Source of the DNA: a virus | Virus record (IMG/VR): IMGVR_UViG_3300011113_000181 | Coordinates: 1 to 35,990 of that record | DNA length: 35,990 bases | Direction: 5' to 3' (one strand) | Shown here: in pieces, positions 4,002 through 35,990 of the stretch | How the letters are laid out: each line of letters opens with the position of its first letter | Position numbering within the stretch: the first letter of the stretch is position 1 | The notes under the pieces: model-generated | What the model was told of the DNA's origin: nothing | Databases searched by the model: none | What the model saw: the letters and a program-made list of their open reading frames with translations, nothing else | Program-made: the position numbers and the translations under genes

Positions 4002-4538
4002 TTATTCGTACATGATGTTTACTGAGCCGGCGTCAAAGGTGTCGGTACCGTTGACTGTGGTTACACGCAGGCGGTCAAGGGTTCCAGAAAGAGTAACATT
4101 ACCCGCTACTATGTACATAGCACCTGTACCGTTTGTGTATAAGATTGACCCACTTGCAACCCAAGTATTGTTTGAAATTAAGGTGAGAACTAAATGTCCT
4201 GTGCTGACCGAGCTTGCCAATGTTCCTGCATATACAAGAAAACCACTGGTTATATTTCCTTGTCCAGTTCCTGAATTAATTGCACCATAGTTGCAAAAAT
4301 ATCCCGAAGTTGTATAACTTCCTGCACCTATTTGAGTTTGAATAAATGACGATCCATTGGTACTTACGCCACTAAACATCACTGTAATTCTCTTGACCCA
4401 ACTTGGGATTCCTGTAAAGTCGATAGTAGTTCCAGTGGTTGTTGCTTGTGCAGTGCCAGAAGTCAATGATCCCAACTGTACTCCAGTGCCAGTTCCTGGC
4501 AGTGTTAACCTATTTGTCCCATCAAGTGTTATTGCCAT
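4002..4538 (-). CDS. Small tail-fibre tip-like structural protein (paralogue of the gene at 2340-2945)
   Basis: A 178-aa protein starting MAITLDGTNRLTLPGTGTG. After ~25 residues it enters the same domain as the 2340-2945 gene: SGTAQATTTGTTIDFTGIPS at the front and LRVTTVNGTDTFDAGSVNIM at the end, with a diverged middle. The DNA at the 3' ends of the two genes is also clearly related, so this is a recent-enough duplication rather than chance composition. An AGGA ribosome site lies about 10 nt before the ATG. The conserved flanks with a variable core suggest a fixed fold with a diversifying surface; the role in receptor contact is inferred. Confidence 0.7.
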   Translation of the reverse strand: MAITLDGTNRLTLPGTGTGVQLGSLTSGTAQATTTGTTIDFTGIPSWVKRITVMFSGVSTNGSSFIQTQIGAGSYTTSGYFCNYGAINSGTGQGNITSGFLVYAGTLASSVSTGHLVLTLISNNTWVASGSILYTNGTGAMYIVAGNVTLSGTLDRLRVTTVNGTDTFDAGSVNIMYE

Positions 4539-4575
4539 TTAAAATATCCTGCCATTACTGTAAAATTTTTAACAT

Positions 4576-7329
4576 TTATAGTACCACCCATTTTTGACCT
4601 GATGCTATAGTAACTGTTACCCCATCTTGTATTGTTAATGGCCCAACACTAACTGCACTATTACCAGCTGTAATAGCCACATTTGAAGTAATAGTAGTCA
4701 AGTTGTAGGTTACAAAACTGCTTACAGGTCCACCACCGCCAGCTGGGCCGCTGGGGCCTTGTGGACCTTGTGGACCTGTATTACCAATCGGACCTTGTGG
4801 TCCTTGTGGACCAGGTACATTACTTATTCCGCTAGGTCCTTGCGGTCCTTGTGGACCTGTATTACCAATCGGACCTTGTGGACCTTGTGTGCCTATTCCG
4901 CTGGGGCCTTGAGGGCCAGTTGGTCCTTGCGGTCCTTGTGGACCGCCTGCATTTCCCTGTGGTCCCTGTGGTCCAATTACACCTTGTGGTCCCTGTGGTC
5001 CCTGTGGTCCCTGAGCACCTTGTGGTCCGCCGCCTGGGCCTATTGCTCCTTGTGGTCCCTGTGGTCCTTGTGGACCAGGCACATTACTTACACCGCTGGG
5101 ACCTTGTGGTCCTTGTGGTCCTGCTCCACTGGGTCCTTGTGGTCCTTGTGGTCCGGTTACACCTTGTGGGCCTTGTGGGCCTGCTCCACTGGGTCCTTGT
5201 GGTCCTTGAACTCCCGTATTACCGATTGGACCTGTGGGTCCTTGTGGTCCTGTAGGCCCTTGTGGTCCGGTTACACCTTGTGGTCCAGTTGGTCCTTGTG
5301 GACCACCGCCTGGGCCAATATCTCCTTGTGGTCCTTGTGGTCCGCGCGGACCTTGTGGACCAGGATCACCTTGTGGACCAAAATCTCCAGCTGGTCCTGT
5401 GGGACCTTGAACTCCTATACCAGTAGGACCTCGTGGACCTTGTAGTCCTCTAGGCCCTTGTGGTCCCTGTGGACCGCCCGCATCCCCCTGTGGTCCTTGC
5501 GGTCCTCTTGGACCAACAGTTCCAGTTGCGCCTGTAGGACCTGCTGGGCCGGACGGACCTTGTGGACCTTGTGGACCTTGTGGACCTGCTGCTGGTCCTT
5601 GTGGACCTTGTACTCCCCTAGGTCCTCTAGGCCCTTGTGGTCCCTGTGGACCGCCCGCATCCCCCTGTGGACCGCTAGGACCCTGTGGTCCTTGTGGTCC
5701 TTGTGGCCCTTCGTAACCTTGAGGGCCTTGTGGACCGATTGATCCTTGAGGGCCTGTTGATCCAGTTGGTCCTTCTGGACCAGCCGGGCCTTGCGGTCCT
5801 TGTAGTCCTATAGGGCCTTGTGGTCCTTGTGGTCCTTGTGGTCCGCCCGCATCCCCCTGTGGACCGCTAGGACCCTGTGGTCCTTGTGGTCCTTGTGGAC
5901 CAGGCACATTACTTACACCGCTGGGACCTTGTGGTCCTTGTGGTCCTTGAGGGCCTTGTGGACCGCCTGCAGGACCCTGTGGTCCTTGTGGGCCAATTTC
6001 TCCTTGTGGTCCTTGTAATCCACGAGGTCCCTGTGGTCCAACTTCTCCTTGTGGTCCTTGTGGTCCTTGTGGACCTCCTGCAGGTCCGGTATTGCCAGTT
6101 GGACCTTGTGGTCCTTGTGAACCAACTTCTCCCTGTGGACCTTGTGGCCCACGAGTTCCCCTTGGACCCTGTGGTCCAACTTCTCCTTGTGGTCCTTGTG
6201 GTCCTTGTGGTCCACCGCCAGGTCCAATGTCTCCCTGCGGTCCTTGCGGTCCTTGAACTCCTGCAGAACCCTGCGGACCCGGAGGTCCCTGTGGTCCAGT
6301 ATCTCCCAACGGTCCAATTGGACCTGTGGGTCCTTGTGGTCCTTGCGTTCCTATTCCCTGTGGTCCCTGTGGTCCCTGTGGTCCCTGTGGACCTTGTGGA
6401 CCACCTGCATTACCCTGTGGGCCTTGTGGACCCTGAACCCCTTGATCGCCAATGTCACCAATTGGACCCTCTGGACCTTGCGGTCCTCTTGGTCCTTGTG
6501 GTCCCAATAAACCTTGTGGTCCTTGTGGTCCACGTGGTCCTTGCGGTCCTTGCGGTCCCTGTGGTCCCTGTGGCCCTTGCGTTCCTATGCCTTGTGGTCC
6601 TTGCGGTCCTTGTGCTCCAGTGACTGAACTATTTCCTACTAACAAAGAACCGTTAGCTGACACACTTAAACTGGTATCTCCCAGATAAATTGTGTTTGCA
6701 GCTACATACAAAGTTCTCCACTGATTAGTAGGACTACCTAAATCATAAGTTACATTGGAAGATGGAATAACATTTTGAGTTACATTACCCAAATCAACAT
6801 TGGCCGAACCAGTGATAGTAACTGTTACTTCGGTTCCGTCTACTGTTGCGGTTACGCCAGACCCTGAAAAATCAAAACTAGATACAGTGCTGGTCAGCAA
6901 AGATCCGTTATTTTTAACGGCAATGTTAGCTGAACCAACTCCACCCGTGCCTTGGGTATAACCAAACGCAGGTCCTGTTACATCTACCCAATAATAGCTA
7001 ATACCATCAAATTGATATTCATATACAACATTGCTTGCAGTATCAAACCACTGGTCCCCAGGCACATTACCTGAAACTGGAGGCACTGTATTTGCAGTAA
7101 ATGCCTGTGGCTTACCAAATTGAGCCCCATTTGCGTAAAAATAATTATCAGTTGAAATAGATGTGACCGCAGCATTGCCTGCATTTAAATTGCCAGCAAT
7201 ACCAACACCGCCAGATACAGTTAACGCACCTGTACTGGTATTAGTAGATACGGTATTGCCATTAATCACCAAATTGGTGTCAACTGTTGCATTTCCGTAT
7301 ATTCTTGTGCCTGATAAGAGTTTTGCCAT
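4576..7329 (-). CDS. Collagen-like tail fibre/adhesin, 917 aa
   Basis: Begins [20 protein letters not shown]. Residues 1-60 are beta-type GN/TV repeats. Residues 86-120 ([20 protein letters not shown]) are a short module common in phage fibres. Residues 132-235 hold further beta modules, ending in [20 protein letters not shown]. Residues ~238-869 are an almost uninterrupted collagen-like (Gly-X-Y)n tract dominated by Gly-Pro-Gln. The last 48 residues form a small non-collagenous cap with hydrophobic alternation that could seed trimerisation. Bacterial and phage collagen-like tracts form extended triple helices, so this is probably a long rod on the virion. A few tract interruptions (ISNVPG, VSNVPG) recur at intervals. 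Adhesin function is inferred. Confidence 0.82.
4723..6618 (-). repeat. Long collagen-like Gly-X-Y tract
   Basis: About 630 residues of Gly-X-Y triplets, mostly GPQ with GPT, GPS, GPR, GDI and GNA variants. On the plus strand the DNA is a 9-bp periodic array of ggtccttgt/ggaccttgt variants. Codon choice within the triplets varies (CCT/CCA, GGT/GGA/GGC), so the array is diverged rather than freshly amplified, although several blocks of ~60-100 bp recur nearly unchanged (for instance around 5460 and 5640, and 5060 and 5890). Confidence 0.92.
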
Positions 7330-31234: not shown

Positions 31235-31662
31235 GATGTGCTACGCACATCTATCACTTTCGCTGTCGCTCAGTGATATATTTTAATTAAAGAGCGTAGC
31301 GATATAAGTTTCATCCAGATTAATCAGTCACACTTTGCCCGCACAGGGCAAAAATGATAATGCTTCATCCGAGTAGCACAGTCATTAGCGTTAAAGCAAT
31401 TACAGAGGCGGTTGTCCGGTACCTCGAGCTCAGTTCTTATCACAACGGCAGGTTTATATCTATACGCTAACATACATATAAACCGTGTAGCATCACTGCT
31501 ACGTCTTTTCAGCCTTTATATTCCTATTCAAACAACCAAATTGCGGCATTGGCAATCTTCATCCTTTCGGGTAGTGGTTGAGTGCTCACTAGCACGGTGA
31601 GTCTTCCGTCCCTGCGATCCGAGATCCAGGTCTAGGGCACATGATATTGACTTGTGCGAGTC
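31235..31662. ncRNA. Candidate structured RNA in a 428-bp gene-free stretch between convergent genes
   Basis: No open frame of more than ~60 codons here looks like a gene; the stretch lies between the stop of gp51-like (plus) and the stop of the SegE-like gene (minus). It is dense in perfect hairpins: agatgtgc/gcacatct (31234-31252), tatcact/agtgata (31252-31278), tttgccc/gggcaaa (31334-31352), ggtttatat/atataaacc (31451-31484), gtagca/tgctac (31487-31502) and gtgct/agcac (31582-31595). The loop of the second hairpin (cgctc, 31267-31271) can pair with gagcg at 31292-31296, giving a possible pseudoknot. No hairpin is followed by a U-run on either strand. I recognise no tRNA, tmRNA or group I core. 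Transcribed strand unknown. Confidence 0.4.
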
Positions 31663-32097
31663 TTAAATGCTTAATTTATTTTTTATATGGGAGCCATGGA
31701 TACGACAATTGATTATGCCGTTGTAATATTCGTCTGATTCTAATACACGCCTGGTAAATTGTTCTCTTGCTTCAATATAACTACAAATTGCTTTGGAATT
31801 ACAATAGTAAAGTATTTCTCTGGTAAAATTGTCTGAGCCTAATGTTTGTACATCTGTTTGTAACTCAGGACTTGAGCCATAATAATCTCTCCAGTCACTG
31901 TCAACCTTTGAGCGAATTTTCTTTTTCTTTTTAGTACCGTTTTTTAATTTTACTGTTTTTTGAGTAGTCTTACTGAATTTTGCCAGTTTTTTGCCGATGT
32001 ATTTTTTGTTTGATATTTTGTTTGTGATAAGATATACAAATCCAACACAACTGTCGGGTAAATTCTCAACTTCTGAGCCTTCGAATAACCAAGTCAT
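31663..32097 (-). CDS. SegE-type GIY-YIG endonuclease
   Basis: A 144-aa protein starting MTWLFEGSEVENLPDSCVGF. It carries a GIY-YIG nuclease core in the SegE-like form: GFVYLITNK at residues 19-27 (in place of GIY), KKYIGKK at 31-37 (YIG), DSDWRDYYGSSPELQTDVQT at 67-86, FTREILYY at 91-98, and the probable catalytic acid in CSYIEAREQF (E109). This family is a single-domain endonuclease found in T4-like phages, often free-standing and mobile. It lies downstream of the SDR gene with a 37-bp spacer and is followed by the structured gene-free stretch. A small Lys-rich insert (KKKKKIRSKVD) lies between the YIG and WRDYYGSS motifs. Confidence 0.85.
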   Translation of the reverse strand: MTWLFEGSEVENLPDSCVGFVYLITNKISNKKYIGKKLAKFSKTTQKTVKLKNGTKKKKKIRSKVDSDWRDYYGSSPELQTDVQTLGSDNFTREILYYCNSKAICSYIEAREQFTRRVLESDEYYNGIINCRIHGSHIKNKLSI

Positions 32098-32134: not shown

Positions 32135-32719
32135 TTATGCCAAATAGTCTAAGTTACAATAAAATGTTATTTCTTCAATACAAGTATTTGAATTTATTTT
32201 TAATCCATAATTAATAAAATTACATACGTCAGCTAAATTAATTCCGTTACCGGTCCAATTTGGTCGACTTCTACTTAACTCGGTGTCCAGTCTATCTAAC
32301 GTAATTAATGTTGTTTTAAATGGTACTTTGTTGTGTTTAAATGCCTGAGTGCCCTGCTTACTAGCATGTTCTAATGCTGCTTTACTTACACGATATGTTT
32401 CAAATCGGGGTTCGGGCGCAACAACAGTCTTCATACCTATACTGCCAATATTAAATATATGACCACTTTTTCCAGCAGCGGCCCATGCATCATACACTGC
32501 CATATAGACATTTGTCTGTGCAAAATTTGCCCAGTCTTCCTGCGGCGGCCCGTCGAATGCATTATTAACAAATACATCGTAGTTCAAACTGATTTCAGCA
32601 ATTTGTTTATGATCTCGTGTGATATCGATGCCATCTGCTCTACTGATACTGGTTCCATTTAAGTTTTTAACTAGCTCTAATCCCAGTCCTCTGTTGCCAC
32701 CTGTAACTAACAATTTCAT
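32135..32719 (-). CDS. Short-chain dehydrogenase/reductase (SDR) family protein
   Basis: A 194-aa Rossmann-fold oxidoreductase. TGGNRGLG at residues 6-13 is the NAD(P)-binding glycine motif, VNNAF at 51-55 corresponds to the NNAG motif, S93 in FNIGSIG is the catalytic serine, and Y109-x-x-x-K113 (TYRVSK) is the catalytic tyrosine-lysine pair. All four key residues are intact, so it should be active. It is on the short side for an SDR (typically ~250 aa) and lacks the full C-terminal substrate loop. The start overlaps the end of the upstream radical SAM gene by 4 nt (ATGA), indicating translational coupling. The substrate is unknown. Confidence 0.85.
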   Translation of the reverse strand: MKLLVTGGNRGLGLELVKNLNGTSISRADGIDITRDHKQIAEISLNYDVFVNNAFDGPPQEDWANFAQTNVYMAVYDAWAAAGKSGHIFNIGSIGMKTVVAPEPRFETYRVSKAALEHASKQGTQAFKHNKVPFKTTLITLDRLDTELSRSRPNWTGNGINLADVCNFINYGLKINSNTCIEEITFYCNLDYLA

Positions 32720-33828
32720 CTAATAGATCCTCCTTGATCCCATACTTTTGTAAATTTTGTTCCGCAAGTCATTGCACACTCAAATAATCTTTTACTATTA
32801 GTAAACGAATTAATTAAATCTGTCCAAAAAACATTATCAAAAATTTCTGTCAATGATTTATGTTTAATAGATAAATTTTCTAATCCATACGATTCTAAGA
32901 ATGTTCTGACTTGATTTTTACCATCAACAGTGCTTAATGAGTTTGCCCCGGGCAAGCTATTATCCCTAAATCTGGCATCGTATAAATTATGATTAAAGAA
33001 ATTGCAAGGAAGAACTAATCCTTCTGCATTAATTGCAACTTTGTTACCCAATAATGCATCGCATTCAATTGGGGTAGTTTTGAAGTATTCTTCTATATCT
33101 GTGTATTGCTTCTTTAAGGTAGGCAATAACATCATACTCTTATTTCTGTATTCATTGTTACTCGGTGGTTCAATGACAAAGTCTGATTTTGCAATAGGCC
33201 ATGTGGCCATTTCAGTTAAATTTTGAAAATTTAAGAAACGACCAGTTTTACGAACAAGCACATTAAAAAATCCTAGTTCTTTGCCTAACTGTCGAACCAT
33301 TTCAACTTGATGTTCATTGTGTTTGAAAACAATAAAGTTCCATTGAGCTTTTCCTCCTGCAGAGATAAATGCTGTTGCATTTTCTATAACTTTGCTGTAT
33401 TTTACATTGCGCCGGTACAAATGTAAAGTATCTTCTAGTCCATCTATACCAAAATCAATTTGACCGTACCCGTTGAGAATCTTAGCAACTTCTTGCCAAT
33501 ATTTTATATCGTGTACTCCGCCGTTAGTGTGTATATACAGCCACAGCGTTGAATTTTTACGTCTGAAATCTCTGAGAATATCAAGAAACTCTGGGTGCAT
33601 GATTGGATCCCCGTAGCTTCCGCAAAAGAACACTTGTCTAAGCCCAGTGCATAATTCTGTAGTAAATGCATCATTAATAACATTACGATTTAAATGTACT
33701 AAAGGCATATAAGGATTAATACCTGTTCCTAAATTATTTCGTGGGCATTGCGGACAAGCAGCATTACAGTAGCTAGTTATCTCAATTTGATATTCGTCGA
33801 TGGTGTCTAAATTAAAGGTCTGGCGCAT
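32716..33828 (-). CDS. Radical SAM protein with SPASM-like C-terminal cysteines
   Basis: A 370-aa protein starting MRQTFNLDTIDEYQIEITSY. The radical SAM cluster motif CxxxCxxC is C21, C25, C28 (CNAACPQC). GSYGDP (70-75) stands in the place of the SAM-binding GGE motif, and YIHTNGG (98-104) fits the next strand. C-terminal cysteines C256, C275 (VLPCNFF), C351 and C355 (CAMTCGT) are arranged like a SPASM-type auxiliary cluster domain, a layout typical of enzymes that modify peptides. The start overlaps the end of the upstream gene by 17 nt. No substrate peptide is recognisable beside it, though the 180-aa gene upstream is a candidate partner. Confidence 0.82.
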   Translation of the reverse strand: MRQTFNLDTIDEYQIEITSYCNAACPQCPRNNLGTGINPYMPLVHLNRNVINDAFTTELCTGLRQVFFCGSYGDPIMHPEFLDILRDFRRKNSTLWLYIHTNGGVHDIKYWQEVAKILNGYGQIDFGIDGLEDTLHLYRRNVKYSKVIENATAFISAGGKAQWNFIVFKHNEHQVEMVRQLGKELGFFNVLVRKTGRFLNFQNLTEMATWPIAKSDFVIEPPSNNEYRNKSMMLLPTLKKQYTDIEEYFKTTPIECDALLGNKVAINAEGLVLPCNFFNHNLYDARFRDNSLPGANSLSTVDGKNQVRTFLESYGLENLSIKHKSLTEIFDNVFWTDLINSFTNSKRLFECAMTCGTKFTKVWDQGGSIR

Positions 33829-34354
33829 TTAAGAAAAAGTCTTTGGCTTCTTTTAATATATTATTACTGGTTTTAAAAATAGTATTTTCTAAATTAGGTC
33901 CTAGTTTTCTATTTTCAATAACCCACTCTACGAACGGGTTAAAAAAAGTGTATTTCCAAGTACCATTATGTCCTAAATATAAATTTGGACTTATAAATCT
34001 AGGTAATTCTTGATTTTTTGCAACTATAGTATCAATATACGATTTACTATATACAGGCCAAAATTGCCCACTTTGTAATTCTTTATCTAATAAAGTAACT
34101 TTATCGATAGTAACTTTTTTTATATAAACGTACTTATCTACTGCAATGGAGCCGTCTGGATTATATATATGATCTTCATCTGTTTTACCGTAGTGAACTA
34201 TCTTCAATTCGTGCTCGCCCAAGTTTAAATCAAACTCTCTTTCAAATAATTCAATAGCGGCACCATCGTAGAGTACAACATAATCATCAATAATAATTTT
34301 AATGGTAGGGGTTCCTAGTTTATTTCCTACTTCAAATTCTATTTCCAATTTCAT
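33812..34354 (-). CDS. Uncharacterised beta-rich protein between two radical SAM genes
   Basis: A 180-aa protein starting MKLEIEFEVGNKLGTPTIKI. The N-terminal ~100 residues alternate hydrophobic beta strands (IKIIIDDYVVLYDGAAIELF, HELKIVHYGKTDEDHIYNPD, IKKVTIDKVTLLDKELQSGQ), resembling a beta-sandwich of the carbohydrate-binding-module type. The C-terminal part carries ISPNLYLGHNGTWKYTFFNP (121-140) and a helical end (KTSNNILKEAKDFFLNAPDL). No catalytic residue is evident. The start overlaps the upstream radical SAM stop by 1 nt (TAATG) and its end overlaps the downstream radical SAM gene by 17 nt, so it is made together with both. Could be a binding protein or a substrate/carrier; I cannot name a family. 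Confidence 0.7.
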   Translation of the reverse strand: MKLEIEFEVGNKLGTPTIKIIIDDYVVLYDGAAIELFEREFDLNLGEHELKIVHYGKTDEDHIYNPDGSIAVDKYVYIKKVTIDKVTLLDKELQSGQFWPVYSKSYIDTIVAKNQELPRFISPNLYLGHNGTWKYTFFNPFVEWVIENRKLGPNLENTIFKTSNNILKEAKDFFLNAPDL

Positions 34355-35853
34355 TAGTGAATGACTCCTGCAAGTCGATTTAATCTAGATTTATAATTAT
34401 CCATCAAAACTCGTAGCTGATCATCCCCTTTCCAAAAAGTATATCCTAGTTTAATTGCATACTCTTGTGCTTCAATTCTTCGTAAAATACGTTCTTTGTA
34501 AGTTAATGTCGGATTAATTTCACAACTCCAGTCAGGGCCACTAGGACGTTGATTATTGATGCCTACAATTTTTAATTTAGGATATTCAGCCCAAATTGGT
34601 GTACCTTCTTCTATGGTTAAGGTGGTTCCTAAATTAACTCCAATAATAGTTCCATCTGCAACATACGGTTGATACCGTTTTAACATATCTAAAGTTTGTT
34701 CAAAATCTTCCCTTGTTTCGGTCGGAAATCCTACAATAATTAAAAAATACGCAGTAATGCCATATTTGCTAAACATTTGCATTGTATAGTCCAAATCTTT
34801 ACCATTAAACCCTTTACGCATATCTTGACGTACACGATCACTGCCAGATTCGACACCTATGACCATACATTCTGCACCAGCTTTGCCCATTAATTCAAAG
34901 TCGCGTTCTTTCATTTGCTGTTCGGATCTAACAATATAGTGACTACTGTACTTTAGGAACCTATTAGGCAACTCATTTGTATGATAATAATCTACTAAAT
35001 TTTTATTGAATATTCTAAAGTCTTTTACACTACCATTACACAATGCGTCATGAAAAAAATAATCTCTGACTTTATATTTTGTATAGTAATAAATTATTTC
35101 ATCAAATAAACGCTGGCCTTTTTTATAACGAAATCCGCCGTGCATAGTGGGTATATCGCAGAACATGCAACTTCGTACACATCCCCTACTAGTTTCCATA
35201 GGTAGTACGCCGTGTTGATACCCGCTGTGATACTTTAAAATATCAAAATCGTCGAAGTTCATGAATGAATGACTATTCACGTCGCTATGAATTGCAAATT
35301 GATCGCTGTCTACTCCAACGGCATCAAATGTTTCATTGACAATAGAATCCAACGTAGATTCTACTTCGCCTCGGATCCAATGGTTGATTAATCCCTGTTT
35401 TTTGAGATCGTGTGCAAATATTGGCCTTGCAGCAAAACTACCATTTTCTTCTCGGATTAGTCCCTGACCCCCCACTATAACCGGAATATCTGTTTGTTCT
35501 TTCCAATGAGTTAAAAAATCTTTGGTAAATCGTTGTCCTTGCCAGCTAAACACACTGATCATTAACCATTTTGGGTCATAAGTTTTAATTTTAACAACCC
35601 ATTCGTTTATCCAGATATTATAAACTTCTTGTTCCTTGTCAGTCAGTGTTTTTTGATCATTAAAAAAATATTCATCAATTGACCAATAAAGTTGGTCACC
35701 ATATAAATTTCTAAATTCATTATGAAAGTTTAAATTAATATCCAGTATTTTAGAGTCACGACTCCTTTCAGCCAACATAGATTTAATAATTGCAGGCGCC
35801 GCCGCCGGACGTACTGCTGCTATTCTGGGAACAGACAGAATAACTGCAAACAT
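34354..35853 (-). CDS. B12-type radical SAM protein
   Basis: A 499-aa protein starting MFAVILSVPRIAAVRPAAAP. The N-terminal ~200 residues have the fold pattern of a B12-binding domain (PKWLMISVFSW, TDIPVIVGGQGL), but the usual cobalt-ligating DxHxxG motif is not visible, so B12 may be bound base-off or not at all. The radical SAM motif is C225, C229, C232 (GCVRSCMFCD) within MEXSRGC-like context. GKAGAECMVIGVESGSDRVR (residues ~328-347) is the family's strand-loop motif. The start overlaps the gp46 stop by 1 nt (TAATG). Such enzymes methylate or rearrange metabolites, cofactors, nucleic acids or lipids; the substrate here is unknown. Confidence 0.85.
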   Translation of the reverse strand: MFAVILSVPRIAAVRPAAAPAIIKSMLAERSRDSKILDINLNFHNEFRNLYGDQLYWSIDEYFFNDQKTLTDKEQEVYNIWINEWVVKIKTYDPKWLMISVFSWQGQRFTKDFLTHWKEQTDIPVIVGGQGLIREENGSFAARPIFAHDLKKQGLINHWIRGEVESTLDSIVNETFDAVGVDSDQFAIHSDVNSHSFMNFDDFDILKYHSGYQHGVLPMETSRGCVRSCMFCDIPTMHGGFRYKKGQRLFDEIIYYYTKYKVRDYFFHDALCNGSVKDFRIFNKNLVDYYHTNELPNRFLKYSSHYIVRSEQQMKERDFELMGKAGAECMVIGVESGSDRVRQDMRKGFNGKDLDYTMQMFSKYGITAYFLIIVGFPTETREDFEQTLDMLKRYQPYVADGTIIGVNLGTTLTIEEGTPIWAEYPKLKIVGINNQRPSGPDWSCEINPTLTYKERILRRIEAQEYAIKLGYTFWKGDDQLRVLMDNYKSRLNRLAGVIH

Positions 35854-35990
35854 TACACTATCTCCACATCAGTATTGTAATTAGTAAAACCGTTTTCTTT
35901 GACAACTGTTAAAATATTGTTAACTCGACCAGCTAGCTCATCCTTATGTGATACTAGCCAAACACTTTTATTGCTTTCGCGACTCATTTT
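35853..35990 (-). CDS. gp46: C-terminal fragment of gp46-like recombination nuclease ATPase subunit (start outside window)
   Basis: The last 45 codons of a gene that enters from the right edge: visible residues include SRESNKSVWLVSHKDELAGR and ILTVVKENGFTNYNTDVEIV, then TAA. The VWLVSHKDEL string followed by a KENGF tail is the C-terminal end of T4 gp46, the SbcC/Rad50-like ATPase partner of gp47 in the recombination/replication nuclease. The stop overlaps the start of the downstream radical SAM gene by one base. Only this small portion can be seen, so completeness cannot be judged. Confidence 0.75.
   Translation of the reverse strand, partial: KMSRESNKSVWLVSHKDELAGRVNNILTVVKENGFTNYNTDVEIV

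Follow-up and report, generated by a model that had tools for sequence, protein, structure and literature searches.

The virus record IMGVR_UViG_3300011113_000181 of IMG/VR, a genome fragment whose entire 35,990 bases form the window analyzed here, carries on its minus strand four open reading frames (ORFs) placed head to tail after the end of gp46: those for a radical S-adenosylmethionine (SAM) enzyme (rSAM1), a 180-residue protein (p180), a second radical SAM enzyme (rSAM2) and a short-chain NAD(P)-dependent oxidoreductase (SDR). We found that the block consists of two independent two-gene modules, A (rSAM1 and p180) and B (rSAM2 and SDR), each of them an obligate pair, and that the pairs are separable from one another. 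We lean toward the view that these are independently inherited sugar- or glycan-tailoring modules, expressed jointly by a large, uncultured T4-like phage. The original prediction, made from the DNA sequence alone, had taken the four genes for one accessory modification pathway; the notion of a modification pathway is upheld, with sugar or glycan tailoring as its best explanation, and the genes do co-occur in related phages, but the single pathway gives way to two modules, since rSAM2 and SDR persist without rSAM1 and p180.

Two separable modules

The genes for rSAM1 (499 aa, 34354-35853), p180 (33812-34354), rSAM2 (370 aa, 32716-33828) and SDR (194 aa, 32135-32719) lie where they had been predicted, and the overlaps read from the sequence also agree: 1 nt between the gp46 TAA and the rSAM1 ATG, 1 nt between rSAM1 and p180, 17 nt between p180 and rSAM2 and 4 nt between rSAM2 and SDR. 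These overlaps support the proposed translational coupling of the block. Scanning IMG/VR with rSAM1 returned 76 relatives, 73 orthologous loci were assessed, and the full-length rSAM1 sequences formed 38 clusters at 95% protein identity. The gene order is kept across these 38 clusters and down to ~50% identity, as expected of a block conserved in other phage genomes and well in excess of what chance would produce, and dN/dS (the ratio of nonsynonymous to synonymous substitution rates) of 0.04-0.13 indicates purifying selection on all four genes. p180 adjoins rSAM1 in every orthologous locus (73/73); downstream of rSAM1, in loci with enough sequence, rSAM2 is present in 61/69 and SDR in 46/54, and the exceptions that have neither form one sub-clade (L063-L069 and L073). 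Throughout this sub-clade, rSAM2 and SDR are replaced by two related proteins of 340-353 aa (4443-5459 and 5895-6953 in L063), each preceded by a p180-like protein, with a sequence that by eye resembles a pyridoxal phosphate-dependent aminotransferase fold; neither protein of the L063 type has a PHROG match, and the second is also without a Pfam match.

With rSAM2 as the query, at least 587 viral contigs with relatives were found, of which the best 80 were examined. SDR lies directly downstream of rSAM2 in 45 of them and is fused to the rSAM2 C-terminus in 17 (fusion proteins of 568-600 aa), that is, in 62/62 loci at ≥45% identity, and most of the rSAM2 loci examined have rSAM2 and SDR without rSAM1 and p180. 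In the tree built from 88 rSAM2 sequences, 1-2 changes account for the fusion and ~16 for the presence of rSAM1, some of the rSAM1 matches on this tree being paralogues. Because one or two events explain the fusion, the loci L007 and L072 are not claimed to be independent. Relative to rSAM2, the rSAM1-p180 pair is inverted in L167 and L209, and a duplication has made it a divergent pair in L013-L015, L025, L030 and L031. Upstream of rSAM2-SDR, other gene sets take its place in L153 and L180, and nothing does so in L158, L168, L191 and L205. These arrangements identify rSAM2-SDR as the core and rSAM1-p180 as a swappable accessory. Mere adjacency by descent within one clade was also considered as an explanation for the block, and it is contradicted by purifying selection, by the rSAM2-SDR fusion and by the many times that module A has been gained and lost.

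The set that takes the place of rSAM1-p180 in L153 (4226-6017) and L180 (4283-6001) comprises three conserved genes (~160, 175 and 253 aa; clusters n17-n18-n19) and also stands beside rSAM2-SDR in L154, L177, L179, L181 and L183. In other phages, rSAM2 relatives at ~35% have a different Rossmann/SDR-like neighbor (cluster n24). A comparison with 50,697 isolate-phage records yielded four remote matches (~24%) to rSAM2 and none to rSAM1, p180 or SDR.

The four proteins

By domain and fold, rSAM1 is a class B (cobalamin-type) radical SAM enzyme. Its match to the Pfam family Radical_SAM (57 bits) is above the cut-off of 29.5, and the predicted CxxxCxxC motif (C225-C229-C232) proved intact in 70/70 sequences. 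The AlphaFold2 (AF2) model (mean predicted local distance difference test score, pLDDT, 90.5) has the class B fold, with residues 1-487 aligning with MgmA, OxsB, TsrM and AprD4 and, at the N terminus, a Rossmann-like domain of the cobalamin type placed as in class B enzymes. The best fold match is AprD4 with its aminoglycoside substrate (6fd2; Z 25.5, root-mean-square deviation [rmsd] 3.1, 387 residues aligned), next to MgmA (Z 24.2, rmsd 3.7, 368 residues) and OxsB (Z 23.9, rmsd 3.9, 403 residues), and these scores are so nearly tied that the fold cannot choose between a dehydratase and a methylase. AprD4 shares the class B fold but needs no cobalamin. rSAM1 W104, invariant in 50/50 orthologues and Tyr, Phe or another residue in some paralogues, aligns with TokK W76, which lies against the lower side of the cobalamin. 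Every curated cut-off was missed in comparisons of rSAM1 with NCBIfam families: the best match, to the PhpK family TIGR04479, is below its cut-off, and NF033070 (AprD4 diol dehydratases) scored 20.1 bits against a cut-off of 500. rSAM1 resembles the class B cobalamin radical SAM methylases (TokK, OxsB, TsrM, MgmA and the PhpK family) in domain order, fold and the W104/TokK W76 correspondence, and lacks a DxHxxG motif, as do several class B enzymes; its scores are below the curated cut-offs, and its cobalamin binding and methyl transfer are putative.

Another known system that invites comparison is AprD4/AprD3, a radical SAM diol dehydratase and an NADPH reductase that act on a pseudodisaccharide in apramycin biosynthesis (PMC5461906). 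The block is like this pair in the overall fold of rSAM1 and in the logic of a radical enzyme followed by an NAD(P)H reductase. Unlike AprD3, however, the SDR goes with rSAM2 whether rSAM1 is present or not, and rSAM1 itself has no dedicated reductase; moreover, rSAM1 falls far below the NF033070 cut-off and is matched almost equally well by MgmA and OxsB. We therefore regard AprD4/AprD3 as an analogy of logic rather than of family membership.

p180, which had been described as a beta protein of unknown kind, is indeed predicted to be a beta protein, to which a fold can now be assigned: in the AF2 model (pLDDT 89), a CBM60-fold beta-sandwich (residues 1-138; CBM, carbohydrate-binding module) precedes a C-terminal helical part (141-175). 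The model matches vCBM60 (2xfd) with a Foldseek E of 5.6e-3 and probability 1.00 and with a VIA Z of 10.1 (rmsd 2.6 Å, 103 of 109 residues aligned), the next unrelated fold having a Z of 5.4. It is the fixed partner of rSAM1 only, and its predicted role is carbohydrate binding. In sequence comparisons, p180 itself did not match PF16841; the best Pfam family for any member of the p180 family was nevertheless CBM60 (PF16841; E 0.077, 13.9 bits, cut-off 28.2), reached by an L023 paralogue and the sole indication of carbohydrate binding from Pfam, and neither a search of PDB sequences with the p180 profile nor hhalign of that profile with the 2xfd sequence gave anything usable. K57, D73 and G131 are invariant in 66/66 sequences and N130 is nearly so. 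p180 is like the calcium-dependent modules CBM60 and CBM36 in the fold of residues 1-138 and differs from them in having no significant sequence match, in its C-terminal helices, in the apparent loss of at least one calcium ligand and in being the free-standing partner of an enzyme, whereas CBM60 and CBM36 are modules of hydrolases. Sequence comparison turned up no further p180-like domain in 16 viral records, which argues that p180 is no offshoot of a recognizable phage structural protein. The p180 alignment that includes paralogues was too diverse for the collection scan; a narrower alignment, used as a single pattern, revealed no bacterial homologue, a weak negative.

rSAM2 (Pfam Radical_SAM, 39.9 bits, over the cut-off) had been credited with a SPASM-like tail, a claim that did not hold: there is no match to the SPASM family PF13186, and four auxiliary cysteines, not seven, follow the core. 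C21-C25-C28, C69, C256, C275, C351 and C355 are kept in 122-124 of 124 sequences, bacterial ones included, and the auxiliary C256, C275, C351 and C355 in 123-124 of 124. Four conserved auxiliary cysteines fit one auxiliary cluster, and from this cysteine pattern rSAM2 is probably a twitch-type radical SAM enzyme. It shares the CX3CX2C motif, the four auxiliary cysteines and the single cluster with twitch enzymes of the BtrN and MoaA type, although its profile matches no PDB sequence. The SDR assignment derives from a match to adh_short (E 1.1e-5, 25.5 bits), marginally below the cut-off of 26.6, and from the motif TGGNRGLG with S93, Y109 and K113, conserved in 75/75 sequences; like the CxxxCxxC motif of rSAM2, these catalytic residues are thus intact, as predicted, throughout the family. 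A sub-threshold match of SDR to PF19278 was judged to be chance. Between the window (32135-32719) and its close relative L003 (5078-5659), the SDR gene has a synonymous divergence (dS) of 0.58, compared with 0.09-0.18 for rSAM1, p180 and rSAM2 in the same two phages, and this 3-6x difference points to recombination inside the block.

Proposed glycan tailoring and its alternatives

The original prediction had listed peptide, nucleotide, glycan and cofactor as targets. We favor glycan over peptide and nucleotide, now less likely, because of the CBM fold of p180, the polysaccharide context of the bacterial relatives and the sugar-gene neighbors in other phages. In L143, a deltaproteobacterial metagenome-assembled genome (MAG), SDR and rSAM2 (36%) lie inside a surface-polysaccharide cluster with a UDP-sugar dehydrogenase, a Gfo/Idh/MocA oxidoreductase, a hexapeptide acyltransferase, a DegT aminotransferase and glycosyltransferases. 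In a Bacteriovoracales MAG (L142), a single small gene lies between rSAM2 (42%) and SDR (46%), and 25/369 genomes of its phylum contain rSAM2 at E 1e-60 or better. By eye, rSAM2 stands between nucleotide-sugar-dehydrogenase-like and GT2-like (glycosyltransferase family 2-like) proteins in L232 and with a GT-C-like membrane protein in L227, and in the phages L200 and L203 a gene for an NAD-dependent epimerase precedes rSAM2-SDR. Also counted for glycan tailoring are the AprD4-like fold of rSAM1, the constancy of the rSAM2-SDR and rSAM1-p180 pairings, and the Nol/NodU-type carbamoyltransferases encoded on long contigs of the clade.

In such a pathway, rSAM2, with one auxiliary Fe-S cluster, would perform radical chemistry at a sugar alcohol carbon (oxidation to a ketone or epimerization, compare the twitch enzyme BtrN), and SDR would then use NAD(P)H to reduce or re-set the product in a stereospecific manner. 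p180 might hold the glycan substrate or present it to rSAM1, which would C-methylate the glycan, if it binds cobalamin, or dehydrate it in the manner of AprD4. The likely target would be a glycan of the host surface, or a precursor of it linked to a nucleotide or lipid (as in an O-antigen change after infection), with a virion glycan as second choice. A bolder version, which we put forward only tentatively and hold to be doubtful, is a mix-and-match radical SAM toolkit for editing host or virion glycans, located at one constant site in the genome and undescribed in any virus, in which each class B enzyme has its own CBM60-fold presenter and the rSAM2/reductase core, often fused, redox-edits the same glycan.

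Several points weigh against glycan tailoring. We infer the substrate, the order of steps and the product from pairings, folds and motifs. p180 is matched by predicted fold, and as its sequence profiles fail to reach CBM60 the link rests on structure; many CBM-like sandwiches bind non-sugar things. The Asp pair that ligates calcium in vCBM60 is presumably D55 and D60, and in a by-eye alignment with the 2xfd sequence one of these positions appears to be taken by the invariant K57 and the other may be D73, so that calcium-dependent sugar binding in the style of CBM60 is doubtful. Furthermore, 10/17 distant rSAM2 loci have no SDR neighbor, indicating that rSAM2 proteins at large also serve other purposes, and the nearest neighbors in the insertion hotspot that houses the block are mostly unannotated.

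An improbable alternative is that the block modifies a peptide or protein in the manner of ribosomally synthesized and post-translationally modified peptide (RiPP) pathways, with p180 or a virion protein as the substrate or p180 in leader recognition, rSAM1 as a methylase and rSAM2 and SDR making further changes. The constant adjacency of p180 and rSAM1 would suit this scheme, as would the RiPP methyltransferase families among the sub-cut-off NCBIfam matches and the close fold match to MgmA, a protein glutamine methylase; yet the CBM60-like fold predicted for p180 is well packed and encloses an invariant site, there is no leader peptide and no SPASM domain, the Pfam scans gave no domain like PqqD or the RiPP recognition element, most loci have rSAM2 and SDR without p180, and the bacterial context of rSAM2-SDR is polysaccharide.

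We consider it less likely still that the enzymes hypermodify nucleic acid, acting on nucleotides of the phage DNA or on sugars attached to it, with p180 as a reader of the modified DNA. T4 relatives glucosylate hydroxymethylcytosine, the block sits beside gp46/gp47 and 2/11 long relatives have a gene of the thymidylate-synthase family, but no such gene was found in the 148-kb G001 or in eight others (fragments, hence a weak negative), the cassette contains no nucleotide-modification gene, and the bacterial relatives occur in polysaccharide clusters. About as unlikely is the biosynthesis of a small molecule, lipid or cofactor (a metabolite that is secreted or directed at the host), in which the CBM-like protein would serve as carrier: PhpK, ladderane and hopanoid enzymes are among the class B NCBIfam relatives of rSAM1, each scoring far under its cut-off, and genes of the TauD type and, by eye, amidinotransferase-like ones occur among the hotspot neighbors, whereas the block is without thiolation, acyl-carrier or prenyl genes and p180 has the predicted CBM60 fold.

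Published accounts repeatedly list radical SAM genes among the auxiliary genes of aquatic phages without explaining them (PMC7029224, PMC7150976). Pelagimyophages and cyanomyophages, T4-like aquatic phages, are described in parts of one of these accounts as having variable O-antigen/lipopolysaccharide-modifying and glycosyltransferase cassettes and variable radical SAM cassettes, in a different hotspot and with a different gene set, and those parts contain no rSAM-SDR or rSAM-CBM pairing (PMC7029224). We found no earlier description of either pairing in the open-access literature, nor, in agreement with the original prediction, any characterized phage system of this composition. In the loci studied here, such radical SAM genes of aquatic phages sort into two recurring units of two genes, each with its fixed partner: in one unit a protein with a predicted carbohydrate-binding fold, in the other a reductase whose homologues occur in bacterial polysaccharide clusters. 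The modules are small expressible units with a concrete, testable substrate class. If glycan tailoring is their function, phages make radical edits on glycans (deoxygenation, epimerization and C-methylation), a chemistry known mainly from antibiotic biosynthesis.

Genomic surroundings of the block

The capsid, portal and tail genes of the window are T4-like, and the nearest isolate relatives of the portal are PA5oct-type Pseudomonas jumbo phages (50% identity). The window contains no exact T4-type late promoter (TATAAATA), and a thymidylate-synthase PHROG match to its tape measure gene was judged to be chance. The C-terminal end of gp46, an SbcC-like recombination ATPase recognized from its translation, occupies 35854-35990 on the minus strand and is truncated at the window edge; the full gp46 of L003 is 100% identical over this end and matches phrog_77 (E 6e-97). 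The predicted coupling of the block to gp46 is positional: gp46 ends ≤50 nt from rSAM1 in 51/65 testable loci, and genes intervene in the others. On the other side, a gene for a SegE-like GIY-YIG endonuclease (31663-32097, minus strand; PF19835, E 6.6e-32) marks the downstream border of the hotspot, lies outside the pathway and is conserved in most loci.

In L003-L080, the gp47-gp46-SegE region is an insertion hotspot that also receives a TauD-type oxygenase and SPASM-first radical SAM proteins, and unannotated proteins in it resemble, by eye, sulfotransferases, SGNH hydrolases and amidinotransferases. The long clade contigs L138 (G005), L139 (G016), L140 (G002, 344 kb) and L141 (G001, 148 kb) each carry as many as 10-13 radical SAM genes, most of them gathered in a single island whose radical SAM proteins have N-terminal cysteine motifs, alongside genes for Nol/NodU-type carbamoyltransferases and for SGNH-like and glycosyltransferase-like proteins.

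Beyond SegE, the window contains the Rfam Polynucleobacter-1 RNA (RF01718) at 31530-31662 on the minus strand. The same RNA (~106-115 bits across the matches) was found in L003 (6135-6267), L005 (2670-2802), L022 (12145-12276), L030 (13078-13210), L037 (13150-13283) and L048 (5061-5196), and not in L008, L027, L033 or L053; in the window, L003, L005, L022, L030 and L048 it lies at most ~10 nt from the SegE stop codon, and in L037 ~1 kb farther away. Polynucleobacter-1 was listed in 2010 as a structured RNA of Burkholderiales and of freshwater and estuary samples (PMC2864571), and it looks like a phage element.

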